Source of the DNA: Spirochaetia bacterium
Lineage (GTDB): Bacteria > Spirochaetota > Spirochaetia > Treponematales > Breznakiellaceae
Direction: 5' to 3'
NCBI GenBank assembly: GCA_025997595.1
Contig: BNUU01000024.1
Coordinates: 1-29,809 of the forward strand
Length of the DNA: 29,809 bases
Shown: positions 4,193 through 28,601 of the stretch, in pieces
Layout: the number at the start of each line of letters is the position of its first letter
How positions within the stretch are numbered: position 1 is the first letter of the stretch
The notes under the pieces: generated by a model
Told to the model about the DNA's origin: nothing
Database searches by the model: none
Seen by the model: only the letters and a program-made list of their open reading frames with translations
Position numbers and translations under genes: made by a program

Positions 4193-4193
4193 T

Positions 4194-11901: not shown

Positions 11902-12912
11902 TTACGCTTCCCGCACCAGCAGCAGCCGCGTAAGCCTGTCCAGCATATCCCGGGGGCCGCCCGCCGGCAGGGCTGCGATTTCACGGATGGCCCGGGCGGT
12001 GTATTTTTCCGCATAGGAGCGGGCAGCTTCCAGGCCGCCGGAATTCTGCACCAGGCTGATGATGGCGCCGCTGTCCCCAACAGAAAAATGATCGGCGGAA
12101 AAGAGCCCCCGCAGGGCAGCGGCGCCGTCCTGGGAGGGGGCGCCCTCCTTCCGGGAAGCTTGGGCCGGGGTTTCCCCCCGGAAGGCACAGATCAGGGGCA
12201 GGGTAATGAGCCCCTCCTTGAGGTCGTTCCCCAGGGGCTTGCGGACTGCGGCGGGGTCCCCGGCGTAGTCCAGGATGTCGTCGATGATCTGGAAGGCCAT
12301 GCCGATGTTGTAGCCGATGCGCCGCAGCCGGGCGGTAAGCGCCCGTGACACCTTTGCCTCGGAAGCCCCAATATAACAGGCCAGGGAAAAAAGCATCGCC
12401 GACTTCCCCATGATCTTGCGGAGGTAGCGCCGCAGGCTGATATTGGTGCGGAAACGGTCGCTGTTCTGCTCAATCTCCATGCCGCAGATCGTGGCAATAA
12501 CCCGCGCCAGACCTACCGCGTTATCGGCGCTGGTGTATTCTGCCGCCAGCAGAAAGCACCGGGAAAGGAGATAGTCCCCCATGAGTACCGCGTTCCGGTT
12601 GCCGTATTGGGTATGTACCGCAGGCTGCCCGCGCCGGGTGGGGGATTCGTCGATCACATCGTCGTGGATCAGGGTGGCCATGTGGAGCATCTCAAGACAG
12701 GCCGCCAGGGTGTAGTGTTTGGCCTGGGTTTTCCCGAAGCCCCCGGCAATAAGCAGGAGCCCCGGCCGCAGGAGCTTCCCCTGTCCGTTAAAAAGACCGG
12801 AGAGCCCCTGGGAGATAATCGGATTTTCAGATGCGGAAGTCTCCCGGATGATACCGGAAACCCTTTCCAGGGCCTCCGGCATACCGGGAAAATCCTGCCA
12901 ATAAGAAGTCAT
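11902..12912 (-). CDS. Long-chain polyprenyl diphosphate synthase
   Basis: A 336-residue trans-isoprenyl diphosphate synthase. The first Asp-rich motif LIHDDVID (Asp84, 85, 88) is preceded by EMLHMA, as in hepta/octaprenyl synthases where small residues before the motif allow long chains. The second motif is IIDDILDY (Asp211, 212, 215). GKLLRP and MGDYLLSR are further family marks. It makes the prenyl tail of (mena)quinones from FPP and IPP. It is the third gene of the operon begun at 15733, 12 bases after the NADH dehydrogenase stop, so its product probably supplies the quinone used by that enzyme. A low-complexity insertion (about residues 245-270) near the C terminus is unusual. Confidence 0.88.
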   Translation of the reverse strand: MTSYWQDFPGMPEALERVSGIIRETSASENPIISQGLSGLFNGQGKLLRPGLLLIAGGFGKTQAKHYTLAACLEMLHMATLIHDDVIDESPTRRGQPAVHTQYGNRNAVLMGDYLLSRCFLLAAEYTSADNAVGLARVIATICGMEIEQNSDRFRTNISLRRYLRKIMGKSAMLFSLACYIGASEAKVSRALTARLRRIGYNIGMAFQIIDDILDYAGDPAAVRKPLGNDLKEGLITLPLICAFRGETPAQASRKEGAPSQDGAAALRGLFSADHFSVGDSGAIISLVQNSGGLEAARSYAEKYTARAIREIAALPAGGPRDMLDRLTRLLLVREA

Positions 12913-12924
12913 GTAAACCGGCGC

Positions 12925-14961
12925 TTACTTCGAAGGCCCATCAAGGTAAAAATAACGCTTCCGGGCAAACCGGGTTCCGTTCCACCATTTTTTGAAGACC
13001 GGGACCACCCAGCAGTCAAGGCCGAAGGCCCGGCCCGCGCCGCCCAGGAGGAGGAAGCCCGCAAAGAGGAACCAAACCTGGTTCCAGGCGAACATCCCCG
13101 AAAGGGTAAAGATCAGGCACATGACGATGGAAATGACCGCCGCCCACCAGGTAAAGAGCCCGCCAATCATCATAAGGCCGATGGCGATTTCCGCCAGCAC
13201 CACCCCGAGTTGGAAGCCCTGAAAGGGGATATAGGCCATGATGCCGTCCATAAAGGTGGTCCTGAACCAGGTGGCAATTACGCCGTCCATGCTGAAAATG
13301 GGCTTGGTCAGGTCCCAGACCGCCTTAAAGGCGCCCCCGGCGGCGTCCACCGCCGCGCCCCCCGCATCGGAGGCTGCGCTGACCGCATCGGCGCCGGCGC
13401 TGTACAGGTCCTCCGCAGAGCCAAAAAGATCATCCACCGCGCCGAAGAGGTCGTCCACTGCCGGCGCTGCCGCAGCAACTTCATCGCTTGCCCCGGACAC
13501 TGCGTCTGCGGCCGCCTGGGACACCCCGGCCTGGGTCACACCACGGGAGAACATCCACCCCGATTTGGAGCCCGTGCTCCAGGCAAACCAGCCTTCGCCA
13601 ATCTTGTTGATCCCTTCAAAGACCCACATCAGCCCCAGCCAGAGCCGCAGGGGCAGCAGCCAGTAGCCACGGGTCCGGTAGGAGCCGAAGCCCCGGACAA
13701 AGGTCCGGCCGCTGTCGTTGTTGAGGAATTCGTGTTTCAGGTATTCCCAGCACTGGTTCAGGCCCGCCACCCCGATCAGGTAGTGGAGGTTGACGAAGTG
13801 CTTCATAAACTGGGCAAAAATCCCCGAAAGTTTGATCCCCATGGCGTTGGACACGGCATATTTGCCCCCCACGGACACCATAAAGCCGTGGAAGTTTGAT
13901 TTAAACTTTTTCGGCGCAGCCCCGTCGATGTCAGCGATGATGTTATGGGCCGCAGTTTCCCCGGTCTGGACCGCGGTTTCCACAATTTGGGGGAGGGGTT
14001 TTTCATTCTCTATGAACCAGATATTGTCCCCCACGGGAAACACATTGGGATAATCCACGGAACGCATCTCATCGGTGATGAGGAGGCGGCCCCGGCGGTT
14101 CCGTTTGCCCTCCGGCGGATTCTTGCCGAAGGGGCCGTTGGAAAGACCCAGCCCGTCGGCCCAGGTATTGCCGTCTACCCCGGCGGTCCAGATGAAGGTG
14201 CTGGTTTCCAGGGAGGAACCGTCCTTGAGCTTTACCACCCCCGGTTCCGCACCGGTGATTGCCGTACCGGTCAAAAGCTCCGCCCCGTGCTTCTTCATGT
14301 AAAATTCAACCTTATCCCGGAGATCCTCCTCCAGAATGGGCAGGATGGAATTCAGGGCTTCCACCACGATGATCCGCACTTCGGACTTGGGAATGACCCA
14401 CTTGGCGCACATGGTGTCCCGCCATTCAATCAGCTCCCCGGCCATTTCGATACCCGTAAAGCCCGCGCCGGCCACCACAAAGGTGAGCATCTGCTGCCGT
14501 TTTGTCCGGTCCTGCTCGGCAACGGCCTTTTCAAAAATAGCATCAACATGATACCGGAGCTTCATGGCGTCGTCGAAGGACCAGAGGGTAAAGGAATTTT
14601 CCTTAATTCCCGGAATGCCGAAGAAATTCGGCTCCGCCCCGCTGCCCAGGACCAGGTAATCGTAGCTATAGGTTTTGGTGGCGGATTTGAGCTGGTTCTT
14701 CGCAAAATCTATTGTTTCGATGGTATCCAGCTGGACCTTGACCCTGGAGGCGCCGAAAATTTTCACATAGGGCACCCGCACCGAATCGGGCTCCACCCGG
14801 TGGCCCGCAACTTCGTGCAGTTCCGTCATCAAGGTGTGGAAGGGATGTTTGTCGATCAGGGTGATGGTCACATCCGGCTGTTGTTTGTAGCGCTTTGCCA
14901 GCTTTTTGGCGGCCGCGATACCGCCGTAGCCGCCCCCGAGAATTACAATATTTTTTCCCAT
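12925..14961 (-). CDS. Type II NADH dehydrogenase fused to DoxX-like membrane domain
   Basis: 678 residues. Residues 1-420 form an NDH-2 flavoprotein: FAD motif LGGGYGGIAAAKKL (GGGYGG 9-14), NADH motif VVAGAGFTGIEMAGEL (GAGFTG 165-170) and second FAD contact VFPVGDN (Asp312). Residues 434-455 and 580-648 are hydrophobic segments of a DoxX/DoxD-like domain (PLRLWLGLMWVFEGINKI). Between them lies an Ala/Asp/Ser-rich stretch (about 478-548) with DDLFGAVDDLFG tandem repeats. It oxidises NADH at the inner face and reduces quinone; a C-terminal membrane domain is also present on Listeria Ndh2 of the extracellular electron-transfer locus. ATG 14961 follows GAGGAAAAA, 13 bases after the upstream FMN-protein gene. 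Confidence is high for NDH-2 and moderate for the DoxX assignment. Confidence 0.88.
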   Translation of the reverse strand: MGKNIVILGGGYGGIAAAKKLAKRYKQQPDVTITLIDKHPFHTLMTELHEVAGHRVEPDSVRVPYVKIFGASRVKVQLDTIETIDFAKNQLKSATKTYSYDYLVLGSGAEPNFFGIPGIKENSFTLWSFDDAMKLRYHVDAIFEKAVAEQDRTKRQQMLTFVVAGAGFTGIEMAGELIEWRDTMCAKWVIPKSEVRIIVVEALNSILPILEEDLRDKVEFYMKKHGAELLTGTAITGAEPGVVKLKDGSSLETSTFIWTAGVDGNTWADGLGLSNGPFGKNPPEGKRNRRGRLLITDEMRSVDYPNVFPVGDNIWFIENEKPLPQIVETAVQTGETAAHNIIADIDGAAPKKFKSNFHGFMVSVGGKYAVSNAMGIKLSGIFAQFMKHFVNLHYLIGVAGLNQCWEYLKHEFLNNDSGRTFVRGFGSYRTRGYWLLPLRLWLGLMWVFEGINKIGEGWFAWSTGSKSGWMFSRGVTQAGVSQAAADAVSGASDEVAAAAPAVDDLFGAVDDLFGSAEDLYSAGADAVSAASDAGGAAVDAAGGAFKAVWDLTKPIFSMDGVIATWFRTTFMDGIMAYIPFQGFQLGVVLAEIAIGLMMIGGLFTWWAAVISIVMCLIFTLSGMFAWNQVWFLFAGFLLLGGAGRAFGLDCWVVPVFKKWWNGTRFARKRYFYLDGPSK

Positions 14962-14974
14962 TTTTTCCTCTTTT

Positions 14975-15733
14975 TTACTTTGCGCCCTGCAAAGCCAGGT
15001 TTGCGGCGGTAAGGAAATCCTTTACCTGAATGGTCACACCGGTGATGGCGTCGGTTTTACCATCGGCCTTTACGGCGATCTTGGCCGGGTCCTGGACGCT
15101 TATCAGGGCCTCGGCGGCCCGGGGCGCCTGCTGATGCCAGGCGCCCGCAGGGGCCTGCATGGGGTACTTACCGGCGGCGGAGGTGATAATCTTTGAGGGA
15201 TCAACACCCTTCATCTGTAAAATTCCGTTCCAGAGCGCGTCCTTAATGGTCCCGTTTACCACGGTTACAATCGCGGTGTTTATGGTCTGGAATGAATCCA
15301 CCGCAGGGGCCGGCGCATAGTACCAGCCGTCTTTGCTGTAGATGCCCTTGGGCACCGGACCGGCCGCCAGGGCCGCTTTTGCCAGGGCAAAGAAGGGTTC
15401 TACCGGAATGGTAACCCCCGCCACGGATGTGGCGCTGCTGTTCTGGCTGGAAACCAGGAACGCTTCAGCTTTTTCCGCCTGAGCGGCCCAGCCTGAAGTA
15501 TCCTTGCCCGCCTTGGCGGCGGCTTTGCGGTCAGGCAGCCCCGCGCCCATCCCAATCGCATTCCAGTTGGCGGAAGTTATTTTCCCGCCCTGCACCTGTA
15601 AAACCACCTGATCCCGCCACCCGCCGCTATAACGGGGCGCCTGGGCAAAATAGATTCCGTTCTGGGGCGTCTGTGCGAACACCGTCACCGTTCCGATAAT
15701 AACCAATACGGCTATTAAGCTTAATTTTTTCAT
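14975..15733 (-). CDS. Secreted two-domain FMN-binding protein (PplA-like)
   Basis: 252 residues. A signal peptide (MKKLSLIAVL to TVFA, cleavage probably before Gln21) has no lipobox cysteine. Two similar domains follow (about 25-125 and 129-250). Each ends in a flavinylation-like motif: AGVTIPVEPFFALAKAAL (Thr108) and TGVTIQVKDFLTAANLAL (Thr234), compared with the S/T-G-A-T consensus modified by ApbE. The layout recalls PplA, the doubly flavinylated surface protein of Listeria electron transfer. It likely carries electrons outside the inner membrane from the quinone to reductases. The start is ATG 15733 with AGAGG upstream; the frame is open 19 codons further but those precede the signal peptide and overlap the promoter. 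First gene of an operon with the NDH-2 and prenyl-synthase genes. Confidence 0.75.
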   Translation of the reverse strand: MKKLSLIAVLVIIGTVTVFAQTPQNGIYFAQAPRYSGGWRDQVVLQVQGGKITSANWNAIGMGAGLPDRKAAAKAGKDTSGWAAQAEKAEAFLVSSQNSSATSVAGVTIPVEPFFALAKAALAAGPVPKGIYSKDGWYYAPAPAVDSFQTINTAIVTVVNGTIKDALWNGILQMKGVDPSKIITSAAGKYPMQAPAGAWHQQAPRAAEALISVQDPAKIAVKADGKTDAITGVTIQVKDFLTAANLALQGAK

Positions 15734-16060: not shown

Positions 16061-18049
16061 TTATTTTCCTGCGATAAAGTCAGGAACTTTACTGGTTACC
16101 GCATAGTACCCGGCGATGTAGCCGTTGGCGCAGGCATCGGGGCCGGCGTTGGAGCCTAAGCGGTTGGTGCCGTGCACGCCTCCGGTAACTTCTCCGGCGG
16201 CATAGAAGCCGGGGATAGCATTGCCAAAGACGTCAAGCACTTCAAGCTTGTTGGTCGTAATAAGACCACCCATGGTGTGGTGGACCGAAGGCCATTGGGG
16301 GATCGCATAGAAGGGCGCCTGATCAATGGTCAATGCGGCATTGGTAATAACCTTGCGGAATGCAGGGTCCTGCTTGTTGCGGACATACCCGTTGTGGGTA
16401 TTGATGGTGTTGGTCAGGGTTCCGGGGGCAATATTAACACTGCCGGGAACTCCCGAGGGGCTCTTGTAGGCATGAGCGGCGATCTGCTTGGCAAGATCTT
16501 CCAGGGTATCAGCCTTGAAAATACGGCCGTTTTCGATACCCCGGTTCACGGTGTCCTGGCCGGTAAATCCGCCCTGGTCAACGATCTTCTGATCAAGGAT
16601 ACAGAAGGCGGGGAAACCGCCGGAATCCATGGCTGCCTTGGCGTTTACGTCGCGGCGCTCACCTTCGTTAACATAGCGTTCACCCTTGTAGTCTACGTAC
16701 ACAACACCCGAGGAAGGCCCGGAGAAGGGGATAACCGCATAGGCGTCAAGAACGCCGGTGTTGGGATCGGCGAAGGGATAAAGCTGTATATAGCTCATCT
16801 GCATGGTATTGGCGCCTACTTCCTGGGCAAAGGTGATGCCTTCGCCGGTCTGGCTTATCTGATTGGTGGTAGGCATGGCCTCGGTCAGGGAGGGAACCTG
16901 GGCGGACCGCATGGCCACATTGGCGCTGAAACCGCCGGTAGTAAGGATCACTGCCTTGTTGGCTTTGATGGTCTTGATACCGTCAACGGTGTATACCGCT
17001 ACGCCCACTACCTTACCGGTCAAATTCCCTTCCCGGTAGATGCGCACCAGCTTGGTGTTGAGTTTGACCGCAACCTGTGCCTGGTTAAGGAGTTTTTTCT
17101 GGACCTCGGTAATATCGAAGCCCTGCTCATGTTCCAGGGTATACGTCCGGAAACCATAGTGGCCGCCGGGCATGGTCAGCGCGTCACGGACATTGAGGCC
17201 GTTATCAAACATCAGGTCGAGGTAGAAGGGGGAACCGTACACCATGTTTTTAACCATAACTTCGACGGGCATGTAGTCGCCGCCGACAATGGTATCCTGA
17301 ATGTGTTTTGCCGCCGTATCGGGGGTAAGGTTCTTCCGCTTCTGGAGATCCGCAGCCTTCTTGCTGGTATAGGCAGCCCACACACCGCCGTTGATCTGGG
17401 AATTGCCCCCGATAAAGGGCATTTTCTCGATCAGTACGGTCTTGGCGCCATTGGTCTGAGCAGCATAAGCCGCGGCCGCACCGGCATAACCGGCGCCGAC
17501 GACTACCACGTCATAGGTTTCGTCCCAGCGGCTGGGAGTAGCCTCGGGACCCCGGGGGGTTCCGTCGATCTGGAGAAGGGCTTTCCGGGAAAGATAGAAG
17601 GGCTCGCCGCGGACCCGGTATTCCGAAGGATTACCGCCGGCTTCGGTGATGGCCTTTTCCACAGCCTGGAGAATGGCGGCGGAACTCAGGGACGCCCCTG
17701 ACACACCGTCCAAGCCAATGCTCTGCTGGTCCACAATGGCGGCGGGAAGCACCGCAATAGCGGCCTCGGCGATTCCGGGTGTGTCATTGTGGGAAACCAC
17801 GGTTACTTTCTCAATGCGGTTAGCCGAAAGTACCACTTCAACGTTAAACCCAAGGGCGTTACCCTTGACGGACTCGGTATAAGTACCGGGCTTTAACGGG
17901 GTTACGGTCCGCGACGCCACGCTGGCGGGTTTCGCGCCGCCGGTTTTCACGGACGATTCTTTGCTGCTTCCCGAGGTATTACACGCAACAATTGCTATTG
18001 CCATAACGGCAATTACCAGGGGAAAAAGCACTTTCCATACTCTTTTCAT
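16061..18049 (-). CDS. FMN-binding/FAD lipoprotein reductase, urocanate-reductase-like
   Basis: 662 residues. Lipoprotein signal with lipobox ending at Cys23 (IVAC). FMN-binding domain at about 55-140 with motif GVSGASLSS (acceptor Ser120). FAD-binding reductase domain from 178 (VVVVGAGYAGAAAAY). Catalytic region: GERRDVN (Arg466 equals the proton-donor Arg402 of Shewanella fumarate reductase), HHTMGG (590-595) and TNRLGSN (Arg630). At the position of the fumarate-binding histidine it has Tyr424 (IQLYPF), the substitution described for urocanate reductases. The usual GGN-A-x-x-D after NRL is replaced by GSNAGPDACANG. It probably accepts electrons via FMN outside the inner membrane and reduces an unsaturated acid such as urocanate. 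Start ATG 18049 follows GGAGGAAAAAA. Confidence 0.82.
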   Translation of the reverse strand: MKRVWKVLFPLVIAVMAIAIVACNTSGSSKESSVKTGGAKPASVASRTVTPLKPGTYTESVKGNALGFNVEVVLSANRIEKVTVVSHNDTPGIAEAAIAVLPAAIVDQQSIGLDGVSGASLSSAAILQAVEKAITEAGGNPSEYRVRGEPFYLSRKALLQIDGTPRGPEATPSRWDETYDVVVVGAGYAGAAAAYAAQTNGAKTVLIEKMPFIGGNSQINGGVWAAYTSKKAADLQKRKNLTPDTAAKHIQDTIVGGDYMPVEVMVKNMVYGSPFYLDLMFDNGLNVRDALTMPGGHYGFRTYTLEHEQGFDITEVQKKLLNQAQVAVKLNTKLVRIYREGNLTGKVVGVAVYTVDGIKTIKANKAVILTTGGFSANVAMRSAQVPSLTEAMPTTNQISQTGEGITFAQEVGANTMQMSYIQLYPFADPNTGVLDAYAVIPFSGPSSGVVYVDYKGERYVNEGERRDVNAKAAMDSGGFPAFCILDQKIVDQGGFTGQDTVNRGIENGRIFKADTLEDLAKQIAAHAYKSPSGVPGSVNIAPGTLTNTINTHNGYVRNKQDPAFRKVITNAALTIDQAPFYAIPQWPSVHHTMGGLITTNKLEVLDVFGNAIPGFYAAGEVTGGVHGTNRLGSNAGPDACANGYIAGYYAVTSKVPDFIAGK

Positions 18050-18248: not shown

Positions 18249-20174
18249 ATGAAGAAAACTCTCGGTGTCCTGGGGGCGCTGCTGCTGGCGCTGGTCATTA
18301 TGACCGGATGCGGCAGTTCAGGAAAAGCTACCGGACCCATGAAGGCGGGAACCTATCAGGCCACCGTGCCGGGGATGCACGGTCCCCTTTCGGTGGAGGT
18401 TACGGTGGGGGCCAATGCCATTAGCGCCGTAAAAGTGACGGCGAATGTGGAGACCCCCGGACTCAACGAATGGCCGGTGAAGTTTATCCCCGAAAGGATA
18501 GTTAAAGAACAGTCCCTGGCGGTGGATGTGGTGACCGGAGTATCGATAACGAGCCGGGCCATAATAAACGGGGTGGAGAAGTGCCTGGACCAGGCGGGGG
18601 CCAATGTGGCGGCCTTTAAAAAGGCTCCGAAGAAGACCAAGGCGAAGGATGAAAGCCTGAGCGCGGATGTGGTTATCGTGGGTGGCGGCGGAGCGGGACT
18701 TTCCGCGGCGGTAGCGGCCACCGAAGCGGGTGCGAATGTTATCCTGATTGAAAAAACCGGTTTCCTGGGGGGTAACTCCATTGTGGCCGGGGGTATTTAC
18801 AATGTGGCAAATACCGAGCTCCAGAATGCCCTTAAGGGCACCGCTGGCGAGGACAAACTGGTTGCCGATGCCCTGGCGGAAACGCCCATTAACGAAGAAC
18901 ACCGGGCAATGCAGGAAAAGGTCCGGGTGGAATTTGCAGCCTATAAACAATCCGGTAAAACCTTCTACGACAGCCCTGCCTGGCATGCCCTGCAAACCTG
19001 GAACGGCGGGGACAAGCTCGGCTATCTGTCTATTATCGCAAAAATGACTTCCACTGCGCTTCCCTCCAAGGAATGGCTTGAAAGCATGGGGATGAAGTTC
19101 CTGCCCAAGGTTACCCAGGGAGCGGGTTCGCTTTACCCCCGGACCTTGACGGCGGAGCTTCCCAACGGGGTGGGCTATATTAAGGCCTTTAGGGATACCC
19201 TGGAAGGGCGGAGCAACTATACCCAGATCATGGAAACCACCGCAAAGGGCCTCATTGTTGAGGGCGGCCGGGTCGTCGGCGTAAACGCCGAAGGCAGAGA
19301 CGGCCACAAGGTTACCCTGCGGGCCAAAAACGGGGTAATCCTGGTTACCGGTGGTTTTGCGGGAAATGTCAAGCTCCGGCAGGAATACTGCGAAGGCGAG
19401 AAATGGCCCGATCTGGGACCATCCCTGATCACCTCCAACGTATCCGGTGTTACCGGGGACGGGATCTTCTTTGCCCGGGATGCGGGGGCTCAGCTGGTCA
19501 ACATGGATCAGATTCAGTTACTCCATGTCTGTAACCCCATCACCGGCGCCACCGGAGATATTGCCGCTCCGTCCAGCGTCGCCGGATATTTATTTATCAA
19601 TAAAGATGGTAAACGCTTTGTCCGGGAAGATGGGCGGCGGGATGAAATTTCTATAGCTATCATCGCCCAGCCTGACAGCATGATGTACATGGTGCAGAGT
19701 TCCGAAAGTATGGGAGATCCCGCAGTAGCCCAGACTCTGGATAAGCGGACCGTGGCCTACATGCTGGAAAATAAAATTTCAGATTACATAAAGGTTGATA
19801 CCCTGGAAGATCTGGCAAAGACCCTGGGAATGCCTGTGGATAATCTGGTCAAAACCATTGCCGATTACAACGCCGCAGTGGATGCCCATAAAACCGCCGA
19901 TGAATTTGGCCGGGTTGTACTTTCCCGCAAAATTGCGACGGGTCCCTGGTACGCCTTCCCCCGCAAGCCCGCGTCCCACCACACCATGGGCGGCGTGCTC
20001 ATTGACGAAGACGGCCATGCCCTCAAGGCTGACGGTTCCAAGGTTGATGGTCTCTACTGCGCCGGTGAAATCACCGGGGTGGTCCACGGCGGTAACCGCC
20101 TGGGAGGCAATGCCATCGTAGACTTTACGGTCTTTGGCCGCATCGCCGGAGCGAGCGCAGCGGCAGGCAAGTAA
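18249..20174 (+). CDS. FMN-binding/FAD lipoprotein reductase, substrate unknown
   Basis: 641 residues. Lipobox MTGC (Cys21). FMN-binding domain about 32-120, with motif VTGVSITS (acceptor Ser99; Val replaces the usual Ala). FAD domain from 139 (VVIVGGGGAGLSAAV, GGGGAG 145-150). Catalytic arginine in GRRDEIS (Arg464), HHTMGGVLID (577 onward) and GGNRLGGNAIVDF (Arg617) are conserved. However, the carboxylate-binding His and Thr-Glu of true fumarate reductases are replaced (IQLLHV at 422-427, IAAPSS near 438), so the acceptor is probably not fumarate. Expected to sit on the outer face of the inner membrane or cell surface, reduced via a flavin/quinone chain. ATG 18249 follows AGGAGG. Divergent from the 16061 reductase gene, which is also a paralogue. 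Confidence 0.85.
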   Translation: MKKTLGVLGALLLALVIMTGCGSSGKATGPMKAGTYQATVPGMHGPLSVEVTVGANAISAVKVTANVETPGLNEWPVKFIPERIVKEQSLAVDVVTGVSITSRAIINGVEKCLDQAGANVAAFKKAPKKTKAKDESLSADVVIVGGGGAGLSAAVAATEAGANVILIEKTGFLGGNSIVAGGIYNVANTELQNALKGTAGEDKLVADALAETPINEEHRAMQEKVRVEFAAYKQSGKTFYDSPAWHALQTWNGGDKLGYLSIIAKMTSTALPSKEWLESMGMKFLPKVTQGAGSLYPRTLTAELPNGVGYIKAFRDTLEGRSNYTQIMETTAKGLIVEGGRVVGVNAEGRDGHKVTLRAKNGVILVTGGFAGNVKLRQEYCEGEKWPDLGPSLITSNVSGVTGDGIFFARDAGAQLVNMDQIQLLHVCNPITGATGDIAAPSSVAGYLFINKDGKRFVREDGRRDEISIAIIAQPDSMMYMVQSSESMGDPAVAQTLDKRTVAYMLENKISDYIKVDTLEDLAKTLGMPVDNLVKTIADYNAAVDAHKTADEFGRVVLSRKIATGPWYAFPRKPASHHTMGGVLIDEDGHALKADGSKVDGLYCAGEITGVVHGGNRLGGNAIVDFTVFGRIAGASAAAGK

Positions 20175-20311: not shown

Positions 20312-20629
20312 CTATTCCGGTATGTGCGCATCGCCCCCGGCAGGCGGCGGGGCCGCAGGAACTTCGGGGTTTGCCGCTTCCGTTGGGGCTCCGCCCGGAT
20401 TTTCGGTCGGTTCCTTTTTCCTGGCGTCCTCTATTTCCAGCAGATTTGCCGCTTCATCAATTTCCCGGATGATCTTGTCCTTGACCATTATCACTTCTTT
20501 GTAGGCCCTTTTGATCTCGCCGTACATCTTTCCCGCAGAACGCAGGAACTTGGGTAAGTCTTCGGGCTTGATAAGGATAATGAGAACGATGGCAACCAGT
20601 ATTATCTCGGAGGGACCTATGCCAAACAT
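20312..20629 (-). CDS. tatB: Sec-independent translocase TatB-like protein
   Basis: 105 residues. The N terminus MFGIGPSEIILVAIVLIILI is a Tat-type membrane anchor, followed by the hinge and amphipathic helix PEDLPKFLRSAGKMYGEIKR, a charged helix to about residue 70 and a Pro/Ala/Gly-rich tail. The start MFGIG-x-SE and longer helix point to TatB rather than TatA; a second TatA is the alternative. ATG 20629 overlaps the tatC stop by one base (TGATG), so the two are translationally coupled. Confidence 0.8.
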   Translation of the reverse strand: MFGIGPSEIILVAIVLIILIKPEDLPKFLRSAGKMYGEIKRAYKEVIMVKDKIIREIDEAANLLEIEDARKKEPTENPGGAPTEAANPEVPAAPPPAGGDAHIPE

Positions 20630-21375
20630 CAGCCTTCCCCAAACTTAAAGATTTTGGCGATGAGCAGCGCAAGAAAATAGAAAAACATAAGGGGGATTGC
20701 GACCCCCAGCTGGCTGATAAAGTCCGGGGGTGTGATGATCGCCGCAAGGATAAATATACCCACTATGATGTACCGCGAGGCGTACAAAACCTGTTTCCGC
20801 TTGAGTATATTTAACACCAAAAGTATTTCCATAAGCAGCGGCGCCTGCAGGGCCAGTACCGCCCAGAGTATAAAACTTAATACGTAGAACATATTGGTCT
20901 GATAATTCAGCAGGAATCCTACATTCTTCGGCACAAAGTAGGGATTAGTCAAAAACCGGATCGCCAGGGGAACTATTTTGAAATAGGCCAGATAGGAGCC
21001 GATGATAATCAAAATCAGACTGAAAATCAAAAAGGACATCACAATCCGCTGCTCCCGGGTGGTAAGGCCGGGAAAGACAAATTTAACAATACCAAAGATG
21101 TGAACAGGTAAAGAGAGGATCAAGCCGGCGATCACCGTTATCTTGAGCTGGGCAACAAAACCTTCCGCGATGGAACTCACCACCAGGGTTTTATCCACCA
21201 TACTGCCCACATCGTTAAACTGATCGGTAAAGAGGGTGATGATCCGTTTTGAGAAAATGAAACAGACTATGCAGGCTATAACATAGGCAATCAGGGAAAC
21301 GAATAGGGAATTCCGCAGTTCCCGAATATGCTCAATAACGGGCATAGCCTTTTCGGAATTTTTAGCAGGGCTCAT
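20629..21375 (-). CDS. tatC: Sec-independent translocase TatC
   Basis: 248 residues with six hydrophobic segments. The N-terminal signature EHIRELRNSL (Glu15 onward, equivalent to the twin-arginine-binding region) and the VFPGLTTREQR segment after TM2 are TatC hallmarks. TatC is the receptor for twin-arginine signal peptides and exports folded, cofactor-loaded proteins. The start is set at ATG 21375 (TTG 21378 precedes it) with AGGAT upstream. It lies in a tatA-tatC-tatB-like unit between reductase genes, consistent with export of folded flavoproteins, but the neighbouring reductases carry Sec lipoprotein-type signals. Confidence 0.93.
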   Translation of the reverse strand: MSPAKNSEKAMPVIEHIRELRNSLFVSLIAYVIACIVCFIFSKRIITLFTDQFNDVGSMVDKTLVVSSIAEGFVAQLKITVIAGLILSLPVHIFGIVKFVFPGLTTREQRIVMSFLIFSLILIIIGSYLAYFKIVPLAIRFLTNPYFVPKNVGFLLNYQTNMFYVLSFILWAVLALQAPLLMEILLVLNILKRKQVLYASRYIIVGIFILAAIITPPDFISQLGVAIPLMFFYFLALLIAKIFKFGEG

Positions 21376-21405
21376 CAATTATCCTAAAAGGGCTGACGTA
21401 CGTCT

Positions 21406-21750: not shown

Positions 21751-23202
21751 ATGAAAAATGCGGACAAAAAGAGGATTATTGGAATTCTCACCATTTCGGC
21801 CTTGCTTATTGGGGGGATGACGGTTTTTTCCTGTGCGGGAAGCGCTAAAAGTGCGGATGCGCCCTTTGCCTCATCCTATGATGTGGTGGTAATCGGGGCC
21901 GGCGGGGCGGGGCTTTCCGCAGCGGTATCCGCGAAAGAGGCCGGGGCCAATGTGGCTGTTTTTGAAAAAATGGGCATCCCCGGTGGTAATACGGTCCGAG
22001 CCAGCAGCGGCATTAACGCCACAGGTACGTCGTATCAGAAAGCGGCGGGGGTAGAGGACAGTGTTGATCTGTTCTATTCGGACACCATGAAGGGCGGTTA
22101 CAACAAAAACGATCCGGCCCTGGTACGGAATCTGGCGGAAAAATCCGCATCTTCCGTGGACTGGCTGGTTAGCATGGGCGCCGATTTAAGCGGCGTGGTA
22201 CTCATGGCCGGCGCCTCGGTAAAGCGCACCCACCAGCCCACCGGCGGCGTCAAGGTTGGCCCGGTTATTGTGGGTACTCTGGATAAAGAGGTTGAGAAAA
22301 CACTGGGCATTCCGGTTTTCTACCAGACCCGTGTTACCTCGGTGATTGCCAGGGACGGTACGGTTACCGGGATTGAGGTGACCACTGCGGACCAGAAAAA
22401 ATACACGATCAACGCCAAGGCCGTGGTACTTGCCTCAGGAGGCTTTGGGGCCAACAACGAGATGGTCGCTTCCCTGGCGCCCGATCTTAAGGGCTTTGCC
22501 ACCACCAACCACCCCGGCGCAACCGGCGACGGCATTGGTCTGGCGGAAAAAGTCGGGGCAGCCCTGGTGGACATGGCGGAAATTCAGACCCACCCCACCT
22601 ACGCTCCCGGCAAAGAGATGATCGGCGAAGCGGTCCGCGGCCAGGGCGCAATCCTGGTGAACAAGAAGGGAGCGCGTTTTATTGATGAACTGGCAACCCG
22701 TGACGTGGTATCCGCAGCGATCCTTGCCCAGGATGGCGGAACCTCCTACCTGGTGTTTGACCAGTCGGTACGGGACAGCCAAAAGGTTATTGATGACTAT
22801 GAGAAACTTGGCATCGTGATTAAAGGCGATTCCCCGGACGCTTTGGCCGCGGCCATTGGCGCCGATCCTGCAACCCTTGCCGCCGCCATCACCAGGTATA
22901 ACCAGGCGGTGGCCGCCAAGAGCGACGCCGAATTCGGCCGGAAGAATATGGCCCGTTCCCTTTCCGTCGCTCCCTACTATGCCATCGAAGTGTTGCCTGC
23001 GGTGCACCACACCATGGGCGGTGTAAAAATCGATGTCAATGCCCATGTGATCAGCGGTTCCGGTCAAAGCATCCCCGGCTTCTATGCCGCCGGTGAAGTG
23101 ACCGGCGGGGTCCACGGCGGCAACCGTCTCGGCGGCAACGCCCTGGCGGATATTGTCACCTATGGCCGTATTGCCGGGACCAACGCGGCGGCGGGTAAGT
23201 AG
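21751..23202 (+). CDS. Secreted fumarate-reductase-like FAD lipoprotein without FMN domain
   Basis: 483 residues. Lipobox VFSC (Cys28), then directly the FAD domain (VVVIGAGGAGLSAAV, GAGGAG 49-54); there is no FMN-binding domain. It has the most complete fumarate-reductase active site in the window, by comparison with Shewanella flavocytochrome c3: IQTHPT (His281, Fcc3 His365), GEAVRG (Glu293, Fcc3 Glu378), ATRDVVSAA (Arg317, Fcc3 Arg402), HHTMGGVKID (419 onward) and GGNRLGGNA (Arg459). Fcc3 Thr377 is Gly here. It probably reduces fumarate or a methylated relative, taking electrons from the small FMN lipoprotein encoded next (23278-23649). ATG 21751 follows TTTAGGAGGAACGA. A terminator separates it from its presumed partner. 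Confidence 0.87.
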   Translation: MKNADKKRIIGILTISALLIGGMTVFSCAGSAKSADAPFASSYDVVVIGAGGAGLSAAVSAKEAGANVAVFEKMGIPGGNTVRASSGINATGTSYQKAAGVEDSVDLFYSDTMKGGYNKNDPALVRNLAEKSASSVDWLVSMGADLSGVVLMAGASVKRTHQPTGGVKVGPVIVGTLDKEVEKTLGIPVFYQTRVTSVIARDGTVTGIEVTTADQKKYTINAKAVVLASGGFGANNEMVASLAPDLKGFATTNHPGATGDGIGLAEKVGAALVDMAEIQTHPTYAPGKEMIGEAVRGQGAILVNKKGARFIDELATRDVVSAAILAQDGGTSYLVFDQSVRDSQKVIDDYEKLGIVIKGDSPDALAAAIGADPATLAAAITRYNQAVAAKSDAEFGRKNMARSLSVAPYYAIEVLPAVHHTMGGVKIDVNAHVISGSGQSIPGFYAAGEVTGGVHGGNRLGGNALADIVTYGRIAGTNAAAGK

Positions 23203-23248: not shown

Positions 23249-23277
23249 TATTATAAAGGTACATTTTTATATATGGA

Positions 23278-23649: not shown

Positions 23650-23671
23650 GCCAAAGTAACATGTGGCACAC

Positions 23672-23728: not shown

Positions 23729-23733
23729 ATGTA

Positions 23734-23750: not shown

Positions 23751-23765
23751 GTAAAGGAAGCTTGC

Positions 23766-24566
23766 ATGAAGTATAGTGTGACCGATGTGGCTAAAATTCT
23801 TGGGTTGACCCCCAGCGCCCTTCATTTTTATGAGAAGGAAAAGCTGCTTGAGGTAGATAAGGACGAGCATAACCATCGTCTGTACCAGGTGGGGGATATT
23901 TTTCGCCTGCTTTCCTATACCAAATACCGGTCCATGGGCTTTTCTATGAAGACCGTGCTAAAGCAATTCAGCGGCGTTGAAAACGACCGCCGGCTGATTA
24001 TCCAGCGTATGGAAAAACAGCGGGAGGAGGCTTCAAAAAAAGCGGCCTACTACCATGAGTTAGCCGATTCCATTGACGGTCATATTACCAGCGTCAAACG
24101 TATCGAATCTCTTTTGGATGAATACGAATTTACCCAGTCTCCCCATACGCTGTTTCTTTACGATGAGGAATGCGGGTGGATGTCCAAAGACCGCCGAGCC
24201 CAGGGGATTGTGCAAAAGTGGGTTAAGGCCATGCCCGCTGCCCGGCTTGCGGTGATGTTGCATTCAGCAGAATCCATGAACGCCGGTTTTGGCTACGCCA
24301 TTACCCCCAGGAAGGCCCAGGCCTTCGCGTTGTCCATGGACCTCAATATGCAGGAACTGCTTCCCGTGTCCTGCCTGCATACCATCATTGCCACCGACGA
24401 CCGGTTTCCGGATAATCCCCATATTGTATTTGAAAAGGCCCTGGACTATGCCCGTTCACGGGGATTTACCCTGGTGGGGAACCCCTGGGGCTATATTTTG
24501 CTGGTGGAAGTCGCGCCGCAGGTCAGGTTAAAACCTTATGTTGAACTATGGGTACCTATTCGATAA
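23766..24566 (+). CDS. MerR-family transcriptional regulator
   Basis: 266 residues. N-terminal MerR winged helix (MKYSVTDVAKILGLTPSALHF and on, followed by YQVGDIFRLLSYTKYRSMGF, residues 1-65). A dimerisation coiled coil spans about 78-118 (RMEKQREEASKKAAYYHELA). A C-terminal domain of about 150 residues ends in KPYVELWVPIR, reminiscent of GyrI/BmrR effector domains. It probably senses a small molecule and activates the reductase gene that follows at 24700 by twisting a long-spacer promoter. The start is ATG 23766; AAAGGAAG precedes it. The second MerR protein (28732-29553) has the same layout and a similar C-terminal YFELWFP. Confidence 0.85.
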   Translation: MKYSVTDVAKILGLTPSALHFYEKEKLLEVDKDEHNHRLYQVGDIFRLLSYTKYRSMGFSMKTVLKQFSGVENDRRLIIQRMEKQREEASKKAAYYHELADSIDGHITSVKRIESLLDEYEFTQSPHTLFLYDEECGWMSKDRRAQGIVQKWVKAMPAARLAVMLHSAESMNAGFGYAITPRKAQAFALSMDLNMQELLPVSCLHTIIATDDRFPDNPHIVFEKALDYARSRGFTLVGNPWGYILLVEVAPQVRLKPYVELWVPIR

Positions 24567-24699
24567 TAGGGTTGTTCAATAACTCGGTTAATTGCCGAAC
24601 AAGTCCAATACCGGTATTCAAAAATAATGCAAAAATCTTAAAAAAACACTTGCGCCTATAGCTGCTATATGAAATAGACTGAATTTTAGGAGGAACGAA
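24567..24699 (+). promoter_or_regulatory. Control region of the 24700 reductase gene with MerR-type promoter
   Basis: TTGCGC (24650-24655) and TAGACT (24675-24680) are separated by 19 bases, the long spacer typical of MerR-activated promoters. The spacer contains the dyad TATAGC-T-GCTATA (24657-24669). Upstream lie a perfect palindrome AATACCGGTATT (24607-24618) and the arms TTGTTC/GAACAA (24572-24577, 24597-24602). The predicted transcript would have a very short leader (about 13 bases), which is a weak point. Confidence 0.4.
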
Positions 24700-26601
24700 A
24701 TGAAACGTATTTCATCGAAAATTTTTGCGGTAGTTTTGGCCCTGGGAATCCTGGGCTGTGCAACCACCAGCAAGATCAGTTTTACCCCCGGTACCTACCA
24801 GGGAAGCGCTCCGGGATTCAACGGGGATGTAACGATAGAAGTTACCGTTGACTCAGGCCGTATTCTGGGTGTCCGGGTGGTGTCCCAGAACGATACCCCG
24901 GAAATTTCCGGGCTTGCCTATCAGCGTATTCCCCAGGCCATTGTCGAAGGGCAGACCCTGGGGGTGGATATGGTTTCCGGGGCGAGCATCTCCAGCAAGG
25001 GGATTATTGAGGCGGCCACGGCGGCGCTGGCAAAATCCGGCGCCGACATTAAGGCCCTGCAAAGCAGGAAACCCGTGGCTGCAGCAAAGCGGACCTCAAA
25101 GAGTGAAACCGCCGATGTGGTGGTTATCGGGGCCGGCGGTGCGGGACTCGCGGCGGCAATTACCGCCAGTCAGAACGGCGCAAAGGTCATTGTGCTGGAA
25201 AAAATGCCCCGTGCAGGGGGAAATACCATTATTTCCGGCGCAGCCTGGAATGCGGCGGATGCCGCCCGGCAGGCGTCAGTTCCCATAAACGACGCCAACA
25301 GAACCGCTATCCAGCAATCGATCACAAGGGCGCCCCATGACGCTTTTGAGAAAGAACTGCAGGCAACCATAACAAAACAGTTTGCCGATTTTAACGCCGC
25401 AAAAAAGACCAGCATCTTTGACAGCCCCGAGTTCCACATGCTCCAGACTTACAACGGCGGTGACTATGTGGGTAATCCCGAATTGATCAAAACACTGGCA
25501 TCGGGAACCCTTGCCGCCCTGGAATGGGAAATGAGCATGGGGTTGCAAGTTAACGACCATATCTTTACCGTGGCCGGCGGACTCTGGCCCCGTGCTCATC
25601 AGCCGACAATGCCTCTGGGAACCGGGTACATCGATACGGATCTTAAATACATTGATGCCCATAAGGACCAGATCACCCTGCTGGTGGATACCAAAGCCAC
25701 CGAGCTGATCGTACAGAATGGCAGGGTCACCGGAGTTAAGGCTGCGGGACCCACGACGGACTATACCTTCACCGCTGCCAAGGGCGTGATCCTTGCCACC
25801 GGCGGTTTTGGGGCCAATAAGGAACTCCGGCAGAAGTATGGCGGGGCTCAATGGGGGGATATGACCGCTGCGGGAACCACCAATCATCCCGGCGCGACCG
25901 GGGACGGCCTCTTAATGGCGGAAACCGTCGAGGCCAATTTGGTGGGAATGGAATATATCCAGTTTCTCCCCCTGGGGGACCCCGTTACGGGCAGTCTTTC
26001 CGGTAATATTGAGCAGGGCGTAGAGGACCGTTTCTTTGTTAACAAAGAGGGGAACCGCTTCGTGGACGAAGGGGGCCGCCGGGACGCGATGACCAAGGCC
26101 CTCTTCGCACAGCCGGACGCCTTAATGTGGATTATCTGTGATAAACACAGCTATCCTACGCCCCAGGTTAAGAACAACTTCAACGAAACCATTGAAGAAC
26201 TTATCCAGCAGAAAAGGGCCTTTGGCGCTAATACCATTGAAGAACTGGCCCAGCAGATCGGGGTTCCCCCGGCTAATCTGAAAGCCGCGGTTGATGAATT
26301 CAACGCCGGCGTTGATTCAGGCAAGGACCGGCTTGGCCGGACCCTCTGGAAGATCAAGATCGATACGCCCCCCTACTATGCGGGCGCCCGGATACCCACG
26401 GTGCATCACACCATGGGCGGTCTCCAGATCAATACCCAGGCACAGGTAATCAACAAGAGCGGCCAGGTGATCCCCGGCCTCTATGCGGCAGGTGAAGTAA
26501 CCGGCGGCATCCACGGGTCTAACCGGCTCGGCGGCAACGCCCTGGCGGACATCCACGTGTTTGGCCGTATCGCCGGAGCAAGTGCGGTGGCAGGCAAGTA
26601 A
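24700..26601 (+). CDS. FMN-binding/FAD lipoprotein reductase, not fumarate-type
   Basis: 633 residues. Lipobox ILGC (Cys20). FMN-binding domain about 28-118 with MVSGASISS (acceptor Ser96). FAD domain from 138 (VVVIGAGGAGLAAAI, GAGGAG 144-149). Conserved catalytic GGRRDAMT (Arg461), HHTMGGLQIN (569 onward), GSNRLGGNALADI (Arg609). The fumarate-binding His is Leu423 (YIQFLPLGDP) and a Gly/Ser-rich GSLSGNIEQG replaces the Thr-Glu loop, so it should reduce a different unsaturated acid; the segment resembles my recollection of urocanate-reductase relatives. ATG 24700 follows TTTAGGAGGAACGA, a 14-base leader shared with the 21751 gene. It lies downstream of a MerR gene that probably controls it. 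Confidence 0.84.
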   Translation: MKRISSKIFAVVLALGILGCATTSKISFTPGTYQGSAPGFNGDVTIEVTVDSGRILGVRVVSQNDTPEISGLAYQRIPQAIVEGQTLGVDMVSGASISSKGIIEAATAALAKSGADIKALQSRKPVAAAKRTSKSETADVVVIGAGGAGLAAAITASQNGAKVIVLEKMPRAGGNTIISGAAWNAADAARQASVPINDANRTAIQQSITRAPHDAFEKELQATITKQFADFNAAKKTSIFDSPEFHMLQTYNGGDYVGNPELIKTLASGTLAALEWEMSMGLQVNDHIFTVAGGLWPRAHQPTMPLGTGYIDTDLKYIDAHKDQITLLVDTKATELIVQNGRVTGVKAAGPTTDYTFTAAKGVILATGGFGANKELRQKYGGAQWGDMTAAGTTNHPGATGDGLLMAETVEANLVGMEYIQFLPLGDPVTGSLSGNIEQGVEDRFFVNKEGNRFVDEGGRRDAMTKALFAQPDALMWIICDKHSYPTPQVKNNFNETIEELIQQKRAFGANTIEELAQQIGVPPANLKAAVDEFNAGVDSGKDRLGRTLWKIKIDTPPYYAGARIPTVHHTMGGLQINTQAQVINKSGQVIPGLYAAGEVTGGIHGSNRLGGNALADIHVFGRIAGASAVAGK

Positions 26602-26627
26602 AACTGTCCGGTATCAGATAAACACAA

Positions 26628-26670
26628 AGGCCCCGCCTTCATACCGCGCAAGCGGCTGAAGGCGGGGCCT
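26628..26670. terminator. Perfect 14-bp bidirectional terminator with apical sub-hairpin
   Basis: AGGCCCCGCCTTCA (26628-26641) pairs perfectly with TGAAGGCGGGGCCT (26657-26670), with an inner CCGC-GCAA-GCGG (26644-26655) in the loop. It lies between the convergent reductase genes 24700-26601 and 26697-28601 and can stop both. T runs are poor on both sides. Confidence 0.75.
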
Positions 26671-26696
26671 ATTACTTTGTCCTGAAAAATAGGCTC

Positions 26697-28601
26697 TTAC
26701 TTTGCCTTGCTCAGGGCGTCGCTGACGGCCTGGATGATGGCTTTGCTGGTGGCGGTGGCGCCGGTGACAATATCCACATTGGTGCTCTGGGCTTTAATGA
26801 TAGCCTGAGGAATATTGACAATAGCGCGGGTGGAAAGTCCCGGGGTTTCATGGACGCTTATATATTCAATGGCTGCAATTTTACTGCCATCCATTCTGAC
26901 TTTAAGTACCAGATCACTTCCCATGCCTGAGCCGGTTCCAAGGTATTCATTGGGTCCCAGGGTAACTTTCAGCGGGGCTAAACGGAAATCCACTCCGGAT
27001 TTGTTTAAGACACTGCCGGCCGGAACATCCTTCTTTACTGTCGCAGCGTTTTTCCCCGCCGTACGACCGGTAAACAGACATTCGCTCAGGTTTCCCCCGC
27101 CGTTGTAGATATCGGTGAAAAAGGAACCAAATTCCCCGGCGCTGTACAAATGGGGGATCGGTTTGCCCCAGACATCAAGTACTTCACATTCTACATTCCG
27201 TTTGGCCCCGCCCTGGGTATTGGTCAGGGTTGCTTTGACTTCGAAGGCATAATAGGGGCCGGTCTCCAGGGGTTTAAGATTGGCAGCTTCTACTCCAAAA
27301 TCGGGGTCCCTGCCGCTTCTGCAATACCCGTTGTATTTGGTGATCTCCGCAGCCAGGGCAGCGGGATCGATGTTGATCTTACCTGCCAGTTCCTGAATCG
27401 AATTAGCCTTGATGATCCACCCCTTGGCAATTTCTTCTTCCATACCGGGACTCCAGACTTTATATACGGTCCCGGTCTTGCGGGCGGTTTCGTCAAATAC
27501 ACAATAGGCGTTTTTAGGTACCAGTTGACTAAAGTAGGTTCCACCGACTTCATTATGACCATGTCGTCCCAGTTCGGTTTCGTCCACAAAACGCTTGCCG
27601 TTTCCTCCGACGAGGATCATATTGGAGGCCCCAAATCCGCCATAGAGGGCGGTATTGGTGGTGGTAAAGAGGTAGTGCATGCCGTTCCCCGTTTCGGGAT
27701 TGATAAAATTGAGATCCGGGCCGGAAAGGGCGCTCATGTGCCACAGGTCTGCTCCCACATCGATAGCCATTTTGATGCCATCCCCGGTATTATACCGGGC
27801 GCCCTTTGCACGGGCATCCGCCAATTGGGCATAGTTTTCCAGCATTTCATCGTTATTCTCAAAGCCGCCCAGGGCCATGACCACTCCGTTTTTTGCCCGT
27901 ATGTTATACCGCCTGCCATCGTGTTCTGCGACTACCCCATGGATGGTTTTGGAATCCTTATCCTGAATCAACTGAACAGCCGGGGATTTGTACCATACAT
28001 CAATGTTATCCTGCCGGTCATATACCAGTTTCCGCAAGAATTTCCAAAAGGTAGCCTGCCAAATGATGCCGTCGATGAAACGGAGTTCTATGCTCTCATT
28101 TCCACCCTTGATTTCCGGGTATTCCACTAGGGGAAAGACCGCCAGTTTACTGATATCAACTCCCATTTTTTCAAACCAGGGCAGGTTTTCTATGGAACCA
28201 TCAACGATGAAATTGATCTCATCATCGCTTTGGTTGTTGTATAAACCCCGGAGGCCCTTATAATAGGTAATAGCCGCTGCCCGCTCTTTTTCTTTGGGGA
28301 TCAGGACCAATTGGGCCGCATACCGGGTATTGCCTCCCTCTTCCCCCTCCGGGGCCTTTTCCAGAACGAGTACCTTTGCCCCCGCATCGGCGGCGCTTAC
28401 TGCGGAAGCGGCGCCGGCGCCGCCGAAGCCGATCACCACCACATCGTATTCGGCGTCCCATGATACGGTGGAAAGAAAATTCCCGCTCGAGGCCCGGTTT
28501 TTTCCGTCCCCGCCGAAAGCGGAACTGGCACAGGCAGCAACAATCGCGGTTATGGCGACTAGCCCGGCAATGATCGAAATCCTCCGTTTGAACTTTTGCA
28601 T
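26697..28601 (-). CDS. Divergent FAD lipoprotein reductase with C-terminal FMN domain
   Basis: 634 residues. Lipobox VAAC (Cys24); the signal contains KFKRRIS, a weak twin-arginine-like pair. FAD domain from 52 (VVVIGFGGAGAASAV, GFGGAG 58-63), and the FMN-binding domain is at the C terminus (about 545-634) ending in IVTGATATS, with the canonical Thr616 acceptor. The reductase signatures of its neighbours are missing: HHTMGG is replaced by NTQGGAKRN, NRLGGN by GGGNLSECLFTGRTAG, and the catalytic R-D pair by ELGRHGHNEVGG. It is therefore a distant member with an unknown acceptor or a dehydrogenase role. ATG 28601 follows GGAGGAT. Downstream of a MerR gene on the same strand, with a classical MerR promoter between them. 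Confidence 0.8.
   Translation of the reverse strand: MQKFKRRISIIAGLVAITAIVAACASSAFGGDGKNRASSGNFLSTVSWDAEYDVVVIGFGGAGAASAVSAADAGAKVLVLEKAPEGEEGGNTRYAAQLVLIPKEKERAAAITYYKGLRGLYNNQSDDEINFIVDGSIENLPWFEKMGVDISKLAVFPLVEYPEIKGGNESIELRFIDGIIWQATFWKFLRKLVYDRQDNIDVWYKSPAVQLIQDKDSKTIHGVVAEHDGRRYNIRAKNGVVMALGGFENNDEMLENYAQLADARAKGARYNTGDGIKMAIDVGADLWHMSALSGPDLNFINPETGNGMHYLFTTTNTALYGGFGASNMILVGGNGKRFVDETELGRHGHNEVGGTYFSQLVPKNAYCVFDETARKTGTVYKVWSPGMEEEIAKGWIIKANSIQELAGKINIDPAALAAEITKYNGYCRSGRDPDFGVEAANLKPLETGPYYAFEVKATLTNTQGGAKRNVECEVLDVWGKPIPHLYSAGEFGSFFTDIYNGGGNLSECLFTGRTAGKNAATVKKDVPAGSVLNKSGVDFRLAPLKVTLGPNEYLGTGSGMGSDLVLKVRMDGSKIAAIEYISVHETPGLSTRAIVNIPQAIIKAQSTNVDIVTGATATSKAIIQAVSDALSKAK

Follow-up and report, generated by a model that had tools for sequence, protein, structure and literature searches.

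The 29,809-nucleotide stretch of DNA analysed here (the window) is contig BNUU01000024.1, called C24 below, of a termite-gut Spirochaetia bacterium of the Breznakiellaceae whose genome (G000) comprises 2.26 Mb and is 79% complete. It carries a cluster of flavoprotein genes that, together with genes elsewhere in G000, would form a flavin-based NADH respiration module working like the pathway of Listeria and Enterococcus, but in a diderm; we put the probability of this at about two in three. As we read it, the pathway itself is known, and what would be new is a variant in a diderm spirochaete that uses a different quinone, possibly a scavenged one, and has a whole series of reductases as its likely electron acceptors. 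On the minus strand, three genes follow one another head to tail, separated by only 12 and 13 bases; they encode a long-chain polyprenyl diphosphate synthase (PPS), a type II NADH dehydrogenase (NDH-2) and a secreted protein with two FMN-type repeats (FMN2). About 330 bases past FMN2, on the same strand, comes the first of five FAD reductases (FR1-FR5); it is followed by FR2, TatC with a TatA/B-type gene, FR3, a 123-residue FMN lipoprotein (FMN1), a MerR-type regulator, FR4, FR5 and a second MerR. All of the named genes are open frames at the positions given in the table, and all except FMN2 have strong family matches in Pfam/NCBIfam profile scans. A preliminary description of this DNA had proposed the three-gene set (11902-15733, minus strand), which frames, families and an alignment confirm. 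Its part list resembling flavin-based extracellular electron transfer (FLEET), with PPS as the likely quinone-tail enzyme, a spirochaete host and many acceptor enzymes, is also supported.

The catalytic part of NDH-2 has the NDH-2 fold, with residues 1-401 aligning with YjlD (PDB 9pxk, 5e-67), and hydrophobic stretches lie in residues 585-647. (Here and below, membrane helices and lipoboxes were judged by a hydropathy window and simple patterns rather than by a trained predictor.) Some NDH-2 homologues carry a precomputed DoxX (PF07681) match. The AQIAWQ of YjlD, whose position we take to be the quinone-site motif, reads VETAVQ in the window protein; E328 and Q332 (E-x-A-x-Q, residues 328-332) are invariant among 26 aligned relatives, where YjlD has A-Q-x-A-x-Q. 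This NDH-2 has its closest relatives in Spirochaetia, including records that bear the names Treponema, Leadbettera, Breznakiella and Gracilinema. PPS is likely to be the quinone-tail enzyme. It adjoins NDH-2 in all 29 spirochaete NDH-2 loci checked with tblastn (L018-L037, L083-L091), a set in which L018 and L083 are the same contig, other loci may share species, and L038, a Subtercola match at 25% identity, was excluded; its best NCBIfam match, GerC3_HepT, scores 208 bits, under the cut-off of 456.55. The gene after PPS in L084, L085, L088, L021, L029-L031 and L035 encodes a small membrane protein, which by reading resembles MntP.

FMN2, for which the start at 15733 is favoured over a longer frame starting at 15790, has no Pfam match in the profile scan, and precomputed PF04205 was present in 15 of 120 among the matches listed for its 277 homologues. 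Its AlphaFold model (pLDDT 90.9) has two alike beta-beta-beta-alpha repeats, and its profile matches the single-domain PDB entries 2kzx and 3o6u (8e-6), both of which are named uncharacterised. In a 32-row alignment, D228 and G232 of repeat 2 are invariant, and the motif there reads TDAITGVT, similar to the TDAISGVS type of the family text. In repeat 1 the Asp of the FMN site is kept in 20 of the 32 rows, and it is gone from the window protein, which reads SVAGVT. The leader is, by reading, of the signal-peptidase-I type, and the pattern scan found no lipobox. Listeria PplA carries two flavinylated domains. The preliminary description had called FMN2 PplA-like: the protein has two repeats, an intact motif in repeat 2 only and no lipobox by pattern. 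A strict identity with PplA is unsupported, and the name is used here for an assigned role rather than a tested identity.

The preliminary description had also placed five FAD reductases and a free FMN lipoprotein beside these genes (16061-28601), and the profile scans bear this out: FAD_binding_2 is present in all five reductases, and FMN_bind (PF04205) in the lipoprotein and in FR1, FR2, FR4 and FR5, each of which has the S/T-G-x-S/T motif. FR3 would have access to such a domain through a separate FMN protein only. Residues 33-480 of FR3 align with the flavocytochrome-c fumarate reductase 1d4c, keeping the TRD, HPTY, HHTMGG and NRLGGNA segments, and FR3 has no lipobox by the pattern used. 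FR1, FR2 and FR4 score highest with the urocanate reductase 6t85, and in them RRD replaces the TRD of FR3; a motif scan of FR5 found none of the canonical TRD, HPTY, HHTMGG and NRLGGNA motifs. The residues of these motifs (TRD/RRD, HHTMGG and the others) presumably have their catalytic roles here. Our guesses as to substrates, from the protein sequences, are a fumarate-like acid for FR3 and urocanate-like acids or other 2-enoates for FR1, FR2 and FR4. FMN1 is a possible electron partner of FR3, the two forming a split FAD/FMN pair. The TatC and TatA/B-type genes (20312-21378), which the preliminary description had passed over, sit within the reductase cluster, and the N-terminal region of FR5 has an RR (KRRI); together these suggest that at least one reductase might be Tat-exported. 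In the sister genome G001, a 94% identical orthologue of FR4 lies beside the NDH-2 operon, preceded by a 91% identical copy of the MerR gene at 23766..24566. Across G000, FMN_bind is matched 11 times, in 10 open frames: five lie in the window, one is RnfG, one is a reductase with two such domains on contig C34, and three are further reductases on C28, C6 and C1. Nine FAD reductases were seen, spread over five contigs. On C34, an rnf cluster (by reading; L013:284-8953) is preceded by a LysR-like gene and a 787-residue protein with two FMN_bind domains and an FAD domain.

ApbE, EetA and EetB had been described as absent, which is true of the window but not of the genome. A search of all of G000 for ApbE, whose absence had been named in advance as grounds for rejecting the pathway, found it on C64 (PF02424, 4.6e-90). 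On C13, EetA (L082:14486-14869, minus strand; PF07009, 1.5e-20) and EetB (L082:13960-14523, minus strand; PF07456, 1.9e-33) lie beside an operon for UbiD, UbiA, UbiX, an NMT1-type binding protein and a permease. PF07009 is, we assume, the EetA family. PF07456 is the EetB family, and Listeria EetB is the FAD-exporting substrate-binding subunit (PMC9973259; papers are cited throughout for the part of their text that was available). Five loci (L148, L082, L139, L023, L019) have a hydrophobic, ECF-T-like protein after EetB, and the four of these proteins that were scanned have no Pfam family over cut-off.

The C13 operon indicates how the quinone ring might be finished. The preliminary description had named DmkA; in G000, UbiA, UbiD and UbiX were found instead. 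The sole PF01040 match in this 79% complete genome is of the TIGR01475 type, with UbiD and UbiX adjoining. UbiD exceeds the cut-off of the menaquinone biosynthesis decarboxylase model TIGR03701 (580.8 against 495.9 bits), UbiA that of the general TIGR01475 (246.4 against 180.8 bits; the MqnP models score under their own cut-offs), and UbiX that of TIGR00421 (185.4 against 108.9 bits). To judge from these matches, our reading is that an MqnP/L/M-type completion may take the place of DmkA. MenD (TIGR00173) was over cut-off in none of 27 genomes, as compared with 7 of 14 controls; sub-cut-off matches in 21 of the 27 were set aside as probably other thiamine diphosphate enzymes. For MqnA/MqnD (PF02621), no match was found in G000 and three of the 27 genomes had one at E 0.001 (MqnC, MqnE and MenG were not searched for). 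The two matches over cut-off, in G021 and G026, are weak (35.6 and 30.1 bits) and were rejected as probable binding proteins because of their low score and, in G026, an ABC (ATP-binding cassette) neighbour: the match there is followed by a 273-residue open reading frame (ORF) and an ABC ATPase-like ORF. PF01040 is present in 12 of the 27 genomes, namely nine of the ten that have a strong match to NDH-2, along with G010, G013 and G018, which lack such a match; in the tenth, G001, which is 71% complete, the contig breaks off within the importer. Three other prenyltransferases were scanned from NDH-2 genomes that lack this UbiA: those of G015 and G022 resemble dihydroxynaphthoate (DHNA) prenyltransferases under the curated cut-offs, and a fragment in G019 gave nothing at 1e-10. 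Absences from G000 itself carry little weight, since the genome is incomplete.

Since neither MqnA/MqnD nor MenD was found in G000, salvage of a precursor is possible there. It has been proposed that microbes with only late Mqn genes import precursors, by transporters that remained to be annotated, and mqnPLM was reported, in a set of human-gut genomes, only alongside the Mqn pathway (PMC4746308). The C13-type operon fits this transporter gap in that an importer lies beside late-type UbiD/UbiA/UbiX genes. Candidate substrates of the importer are a naphthoate precursor or, alternatively, riboflavin or a sulfonate. It is only tentatively suggested, as something that may well prove wrong, that the conserved importer takes up a naphthoate (e.g. 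1,4-dihydroxy-6-naphthoate) released by other gut microbes, that MqnP/L/M-type enzymes convert this to the demethylmenaquinone used by NDH-2, and that this diderm uses flavin-based NADH respiration on the scavenged ring, with flavinylated reductases respiring host or plant 2-enoates. Should salvage be correct, the importer would be a candidate for the quinone-precursor exchange importers called for by PMC4746308.

Relatives bring together the genes that lie on separate contigs in G000. L019, which covers 13,998 bases of a 15,662-base contig, reads ApbE-UbiD-UbiA-UbiX-binding protein (SBP)-ATPase-permease, an ORF of 147 residues without a family, and NDH2-PPS; on the other strand past PPS are an ECF-T-like gene and a cut EetB, and FMN2 and EetA were not seen in this locus. 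The 3,855,671-base contig of L138/L139 has ApbE-UbiDAX-SBP-ATPase-permease, FMN_bind and FAD-reductase genes, EetA-EetB-ECF-T-like and FMN2-NDH2-PPS within about 22 kb, the latter two groups lying roughly 9 kb and 12 kb past the importer. In L140, NDH2-PPS-ApbE-UbiD-UbiA share one strand of a contig that also carries, in the same orientation, SBP and a cut ATPase. In G001, a single contig (L083/L148) holds PPS-NDH2-FMN2, MerR-FR4, EetA-EetB and part of the importer, and in L023 EetAB lies beside a reductase and FMN2-NDH2-PPS. NDH-2, FMN2 and FR4 are within about 10 kb in both G001 and L028. UbiA was matched in 49 genomes; in the 30 UbiA loci examined, some of them cut by contig ends, UbiD lies within about 1.5 kb in 27, UbiX in 19 and the binding protein in 16. 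Eight UbiA loci are from genus g29 (L112-L115, L117, L119, L122, L124); they have UbiD in six and UbiX or the binding protein in none, and no g29 genome has an FMN2 match, so that these loci are possibly a reduced version.

Co-occurrence was followed over 291 genomes of the order, with Fisher p values that ignore kinship. NDH-2 (E no higher than 1e-60) is present in 69, in some of them as a fragment and in three at 41-43% identity, FMN2 in 58 (five partial) and UbiA in 49 (E at most 1e-10). NDH-2 and FMN2 share 52 genomes (p 1.2e-35), NDH-2 and UbiA 46 (p 1.8e-32), and UbiA and FMN2 38 (p 3.4e-23). G102 and G121, whose NDH-2 is diverged (42-43% identity), have 18 and 9 FMN_bind matches, and in G121 two of these are within about 2 kb of NDH-2.

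From these genes, domains, motifs, synteny and co-occurrence we infer a direction of electron flow, a quinone, flavinylation, substrates and a location, as follows. NDH-2 would oxidise cytosolic NADH and reduce a membrane naphthoquinone, whose polyprenyl tail would be made by the adjacent PPS and whose ring would be finished by the UbiA-UbiD-UbiX set of C13. EetB and its ECF-T-like partner would export FAD, and ApbE would load FMN onto FMN2 and onto the FMN_bind domains that the reductases carry. Electrons from the quinol would then pass through the FMN groups to several FAD reductases and on to small organic acceptors, fumarate-like for FR3 and urocanate-like or other 2-enoates for FR1, FR2 and FR4, probably in the periplasm rather than outside the cell.

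A number of observations weigh against this scheme. The G000 blocks are on three contigs (C24, C13, C64), with linkage within G000 unseen. FMN2 adjoins NDH-2 in only 4 of 20 loci (L018-L037, several on short contigs), is some 4.6 kb away in L028, and lies apart from NDH-2 in G029 and G241. Among the 69 NDH-2 genomes, FMN2 was not seen in 17 and this UbiA not in 23, and three genomes have UbiA without NDH-2. FMN_bind is present in 274 of the 291 genomes as compared with 69 for NDH-2, which speaks against the obligatory NDH-2-reductase link of the preliminary description. Seven NDH-2-free genomes of family f3 have 9-16 FMN_bind matches each, the NDH-2-free G045, G060 and G099 have 14, 13 and 16, and in family f1 the median is 3 in 24 NDH-2 carriers versus 2 in 96 others (p 0.002, a small effect); the wealth of FMN_bind in genomes without NDH-2 implies that reductases do not need this NDH-2. 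In addition, EetA is dispensable in Listeria (PMC9973259), and DmkA, DmkB and EetA are not essential for extracellular electron transfer (EET) in L. plantarum (PMC10746273), so the presence of such genes is no proof of function.

The same NDH-2-free genomes rich in FMN_bind would be expected if the reductases drew their electrons mostly from Rnf or some other donor in the membrane, with NDH-2 and its quinone as a separate NADH-disposal system. The rnf cluster on C34 begins right after the double-FMN_bind reductase, and in other bacteria EetB is found most often beside Rnf and EET systems (PMC9973259). A donor of this kind is possible, but the closeness of NDH-2, FMN2 and FR4 in G001 and L028, and of ApbE to the quinone genes, within whose operon it lies in L019, L138 and L140, makes it somewhat unlikely. 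NDH-2 and the quinone might instead scavenge oxygen, as parts of a short chain that ends in a terminal oxidase. The periphery of the termite gut receives oxygen, and minimal chains that pair NDH-2 with cytochrome bd are common. No match to cytochrome bd subunit I turned up in G000, G001 or G055 (haem-copper oxidases were not searched for), and among the 17 genomes with bd matches (16 over cut-off) are just 6 of the 69 NDH-2 carriers, along with 11 of the 222 others (one sub-cut-off). Cytochrome bd was accordingly rejected as the usual partner of NDH-2, and an oxygen-scavenging chain is quite improbable.

It is rather unlikely that the module's main purpose is true extracellular electron transfer, with iron, humics or electrodes as acceptors, and that the organic-acid reductases come second to it. 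Ferric reduction by FLEET in lactic acid bacteria and Listeria is a close analogy (PMC8837199), but FMN2 has no lipobox by pattern and the host is a diderm, in which surface exposure finds no support here. Likewise, the "extracellular" reductases of the preliminary description are unsupported, as such proteins may be periplasmic in a diderm. Nor is it probable, in a genome so rich in reductases (nine, over five contigs) and with FMN2 often unlinked to NDH-2 elsewhere, that independent flavoprotein genes merely cluster by chance: the same blocks recur in several genomes, which largely answers this explanation, and presence and absence correlate over the 291 genomes. We regard chance as very improbable, and the flavin-based NADH respiration module as the best account.

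If the module operates as proposed, quinone-dependent flavin respiration would be another route of NAD+ regeneration for termite-gut spirochaetes and, by way of quinone precursors and reducible acids, would connect them with other microbes of the gut; the operon of importer and late enzymes makes quinone-precursor exchange directly testable in cultured species. A 2026 study of large termite-gut Breznakiellaceae spirochaetes (PMC13067680) covers the fermentation of sugars, an Rnf complex and, for two species, reductive acetogenesis, and a term search of its main text gave no mention of quinone, NDH, flavin or respirat. Among the matches listed in a literature search, no title or abstract start describes a flavin-based pathway in spirochaetes, and the only mention of spirochaetes in FeGenie (PMC7005843) is in a reference title. 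The main text of PMC8238504 does not contain "spirochaet"; its breakdown by phylum and genome is in figures and supplements, and an earlier listing of a spirochaete cluster is possible there.

Table. Features of the window, with the basis of each assignment. Upstream (3443-11888) lie, by reading only, mannose-family-like phosphotransferase system genes, a dehydrogenase, a SorC-like regulator, a class II aldolase, EI, HPr and EIIA.
Feature	Position	Strand	Basis
Long-chain polyprenyl diphosphate synthase (PPS; DmkB-like role)	11902..12912	-	PF00348 5e-61
Type II NADH dehydrogenase with C-terminal membrane region (NDH-2)	12925..14961	-	PF07992 (Pyr_redox_2) 1e-35
Secreted two-repeat FMN-type protein (FMN2; PplA-like role)	14975..15733	-	homologues, alignment, AlphaFold, PDB 2kzx 1.9e-41
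FR1, FMN_bind and FAD reductase, lipobox, urocanate-reductase-like RRD	16061..18049	-	PF04205, PF00890; PDB 6t85 7e-64
FR2, FMN_bind and FAD reductase, lipobox-like MTGC, RRD, HHTMGG	18249..20174	+	Pfam, PDB, motif scan
TatA/B-type translocase subunit	20312..20629	-	PF02416 7e-5, 22.4 bits, cut-off 21
TatC	20629..21378	-	PF00902 6e-50; TIGR00945 143 bits, cut-off 132.7
FR3, flavocytochrome-c fumarate-reductase-like FAD reductase without own FMN_bind	21751..23202	+	PF00890 2e-90; PDB 1d4c 9e-133
Free FMN_bind lipoprotein (FMN1), 123 aa	23278..23649	+	PF04205 8e-17; lipobox VAAC, SGAS
MerR-type regulator	23766..24566	+	PF00376
FR4, FMN_bind and FAD reductase, lipobox, RRD	24700..26601	+	Pfam, PDB, motif scan
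FR5, FAD reductase with C-terminal FMN_bind, RR near N-terminus	26697..28601	-	Pfam, PDB, motif scan
Second MerR-type regulator	28732..29559	-	PF13411 1e-10

The Listeria locus has the order FmnA-dmkA-fmnB-pplA-ndh2-eetAB-dmkB (PMC7005843). The present module shares with Listeria FLEET an NDH-2 with a membrane region, a prenyl synthase, ApbE, EetA, EetB and its ECF-T-like neighbour, a secreted FMN-type protein of two repeats, and reductases of the fumarate/urocanate type that contain FMN_bind domains. It differs in having UbiA, UbiD and UbiX, with no DmkA found, an NMT1-type ABC importer in the operon, an FMN protein without a lipobox, a diderm host, a distribution over three contigs in G000, and five reductases and TatC clustered beside the core. 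As in the operational definition of EET in PMC8238504, an NDH-2 with a transmembrane region lies near FMN-binding or ApbE genes: the PF04205 protein FR1 is two genes from NDH-2, and ApbE is next to NDH2-PPS in L140. A single contiguous locus was not seen in G000 and is largely present in L019; since neither this nor DmkA was found in G000, the module is not filed as a FLEET member. L. plantarum, whose EET uses exogenous DHNA (PMC10746273), likewise has late quinone genes and no complete quinone pathway, but here UbiA/D/X and an importer are in one operon, and salvage is only a candidate. The MqnP-MqnL-MqnM late steps of the futalosine pathway (PMC4746308) are resembled in that homologues of UbiA, UbiD and UbiX form one operon and UbiD is over the menaquinone-decarboxylase cut-off; unlike that pathway, PF02621 (MqnA/MqnD) was not found in G000 and had only the two weak matches over cut-off in 27 genomes. 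Finally, the fusion of FMN_bind to FAD_binding_2 is that of the flavinylated fumarate-reductase-like enzymes of PMC8238504, from which the window differs in its cluster of five, in the possible split pair of FR3 and the 123-residue lipoprotein, and in the C-terminal FMN_bind domain of FR5.

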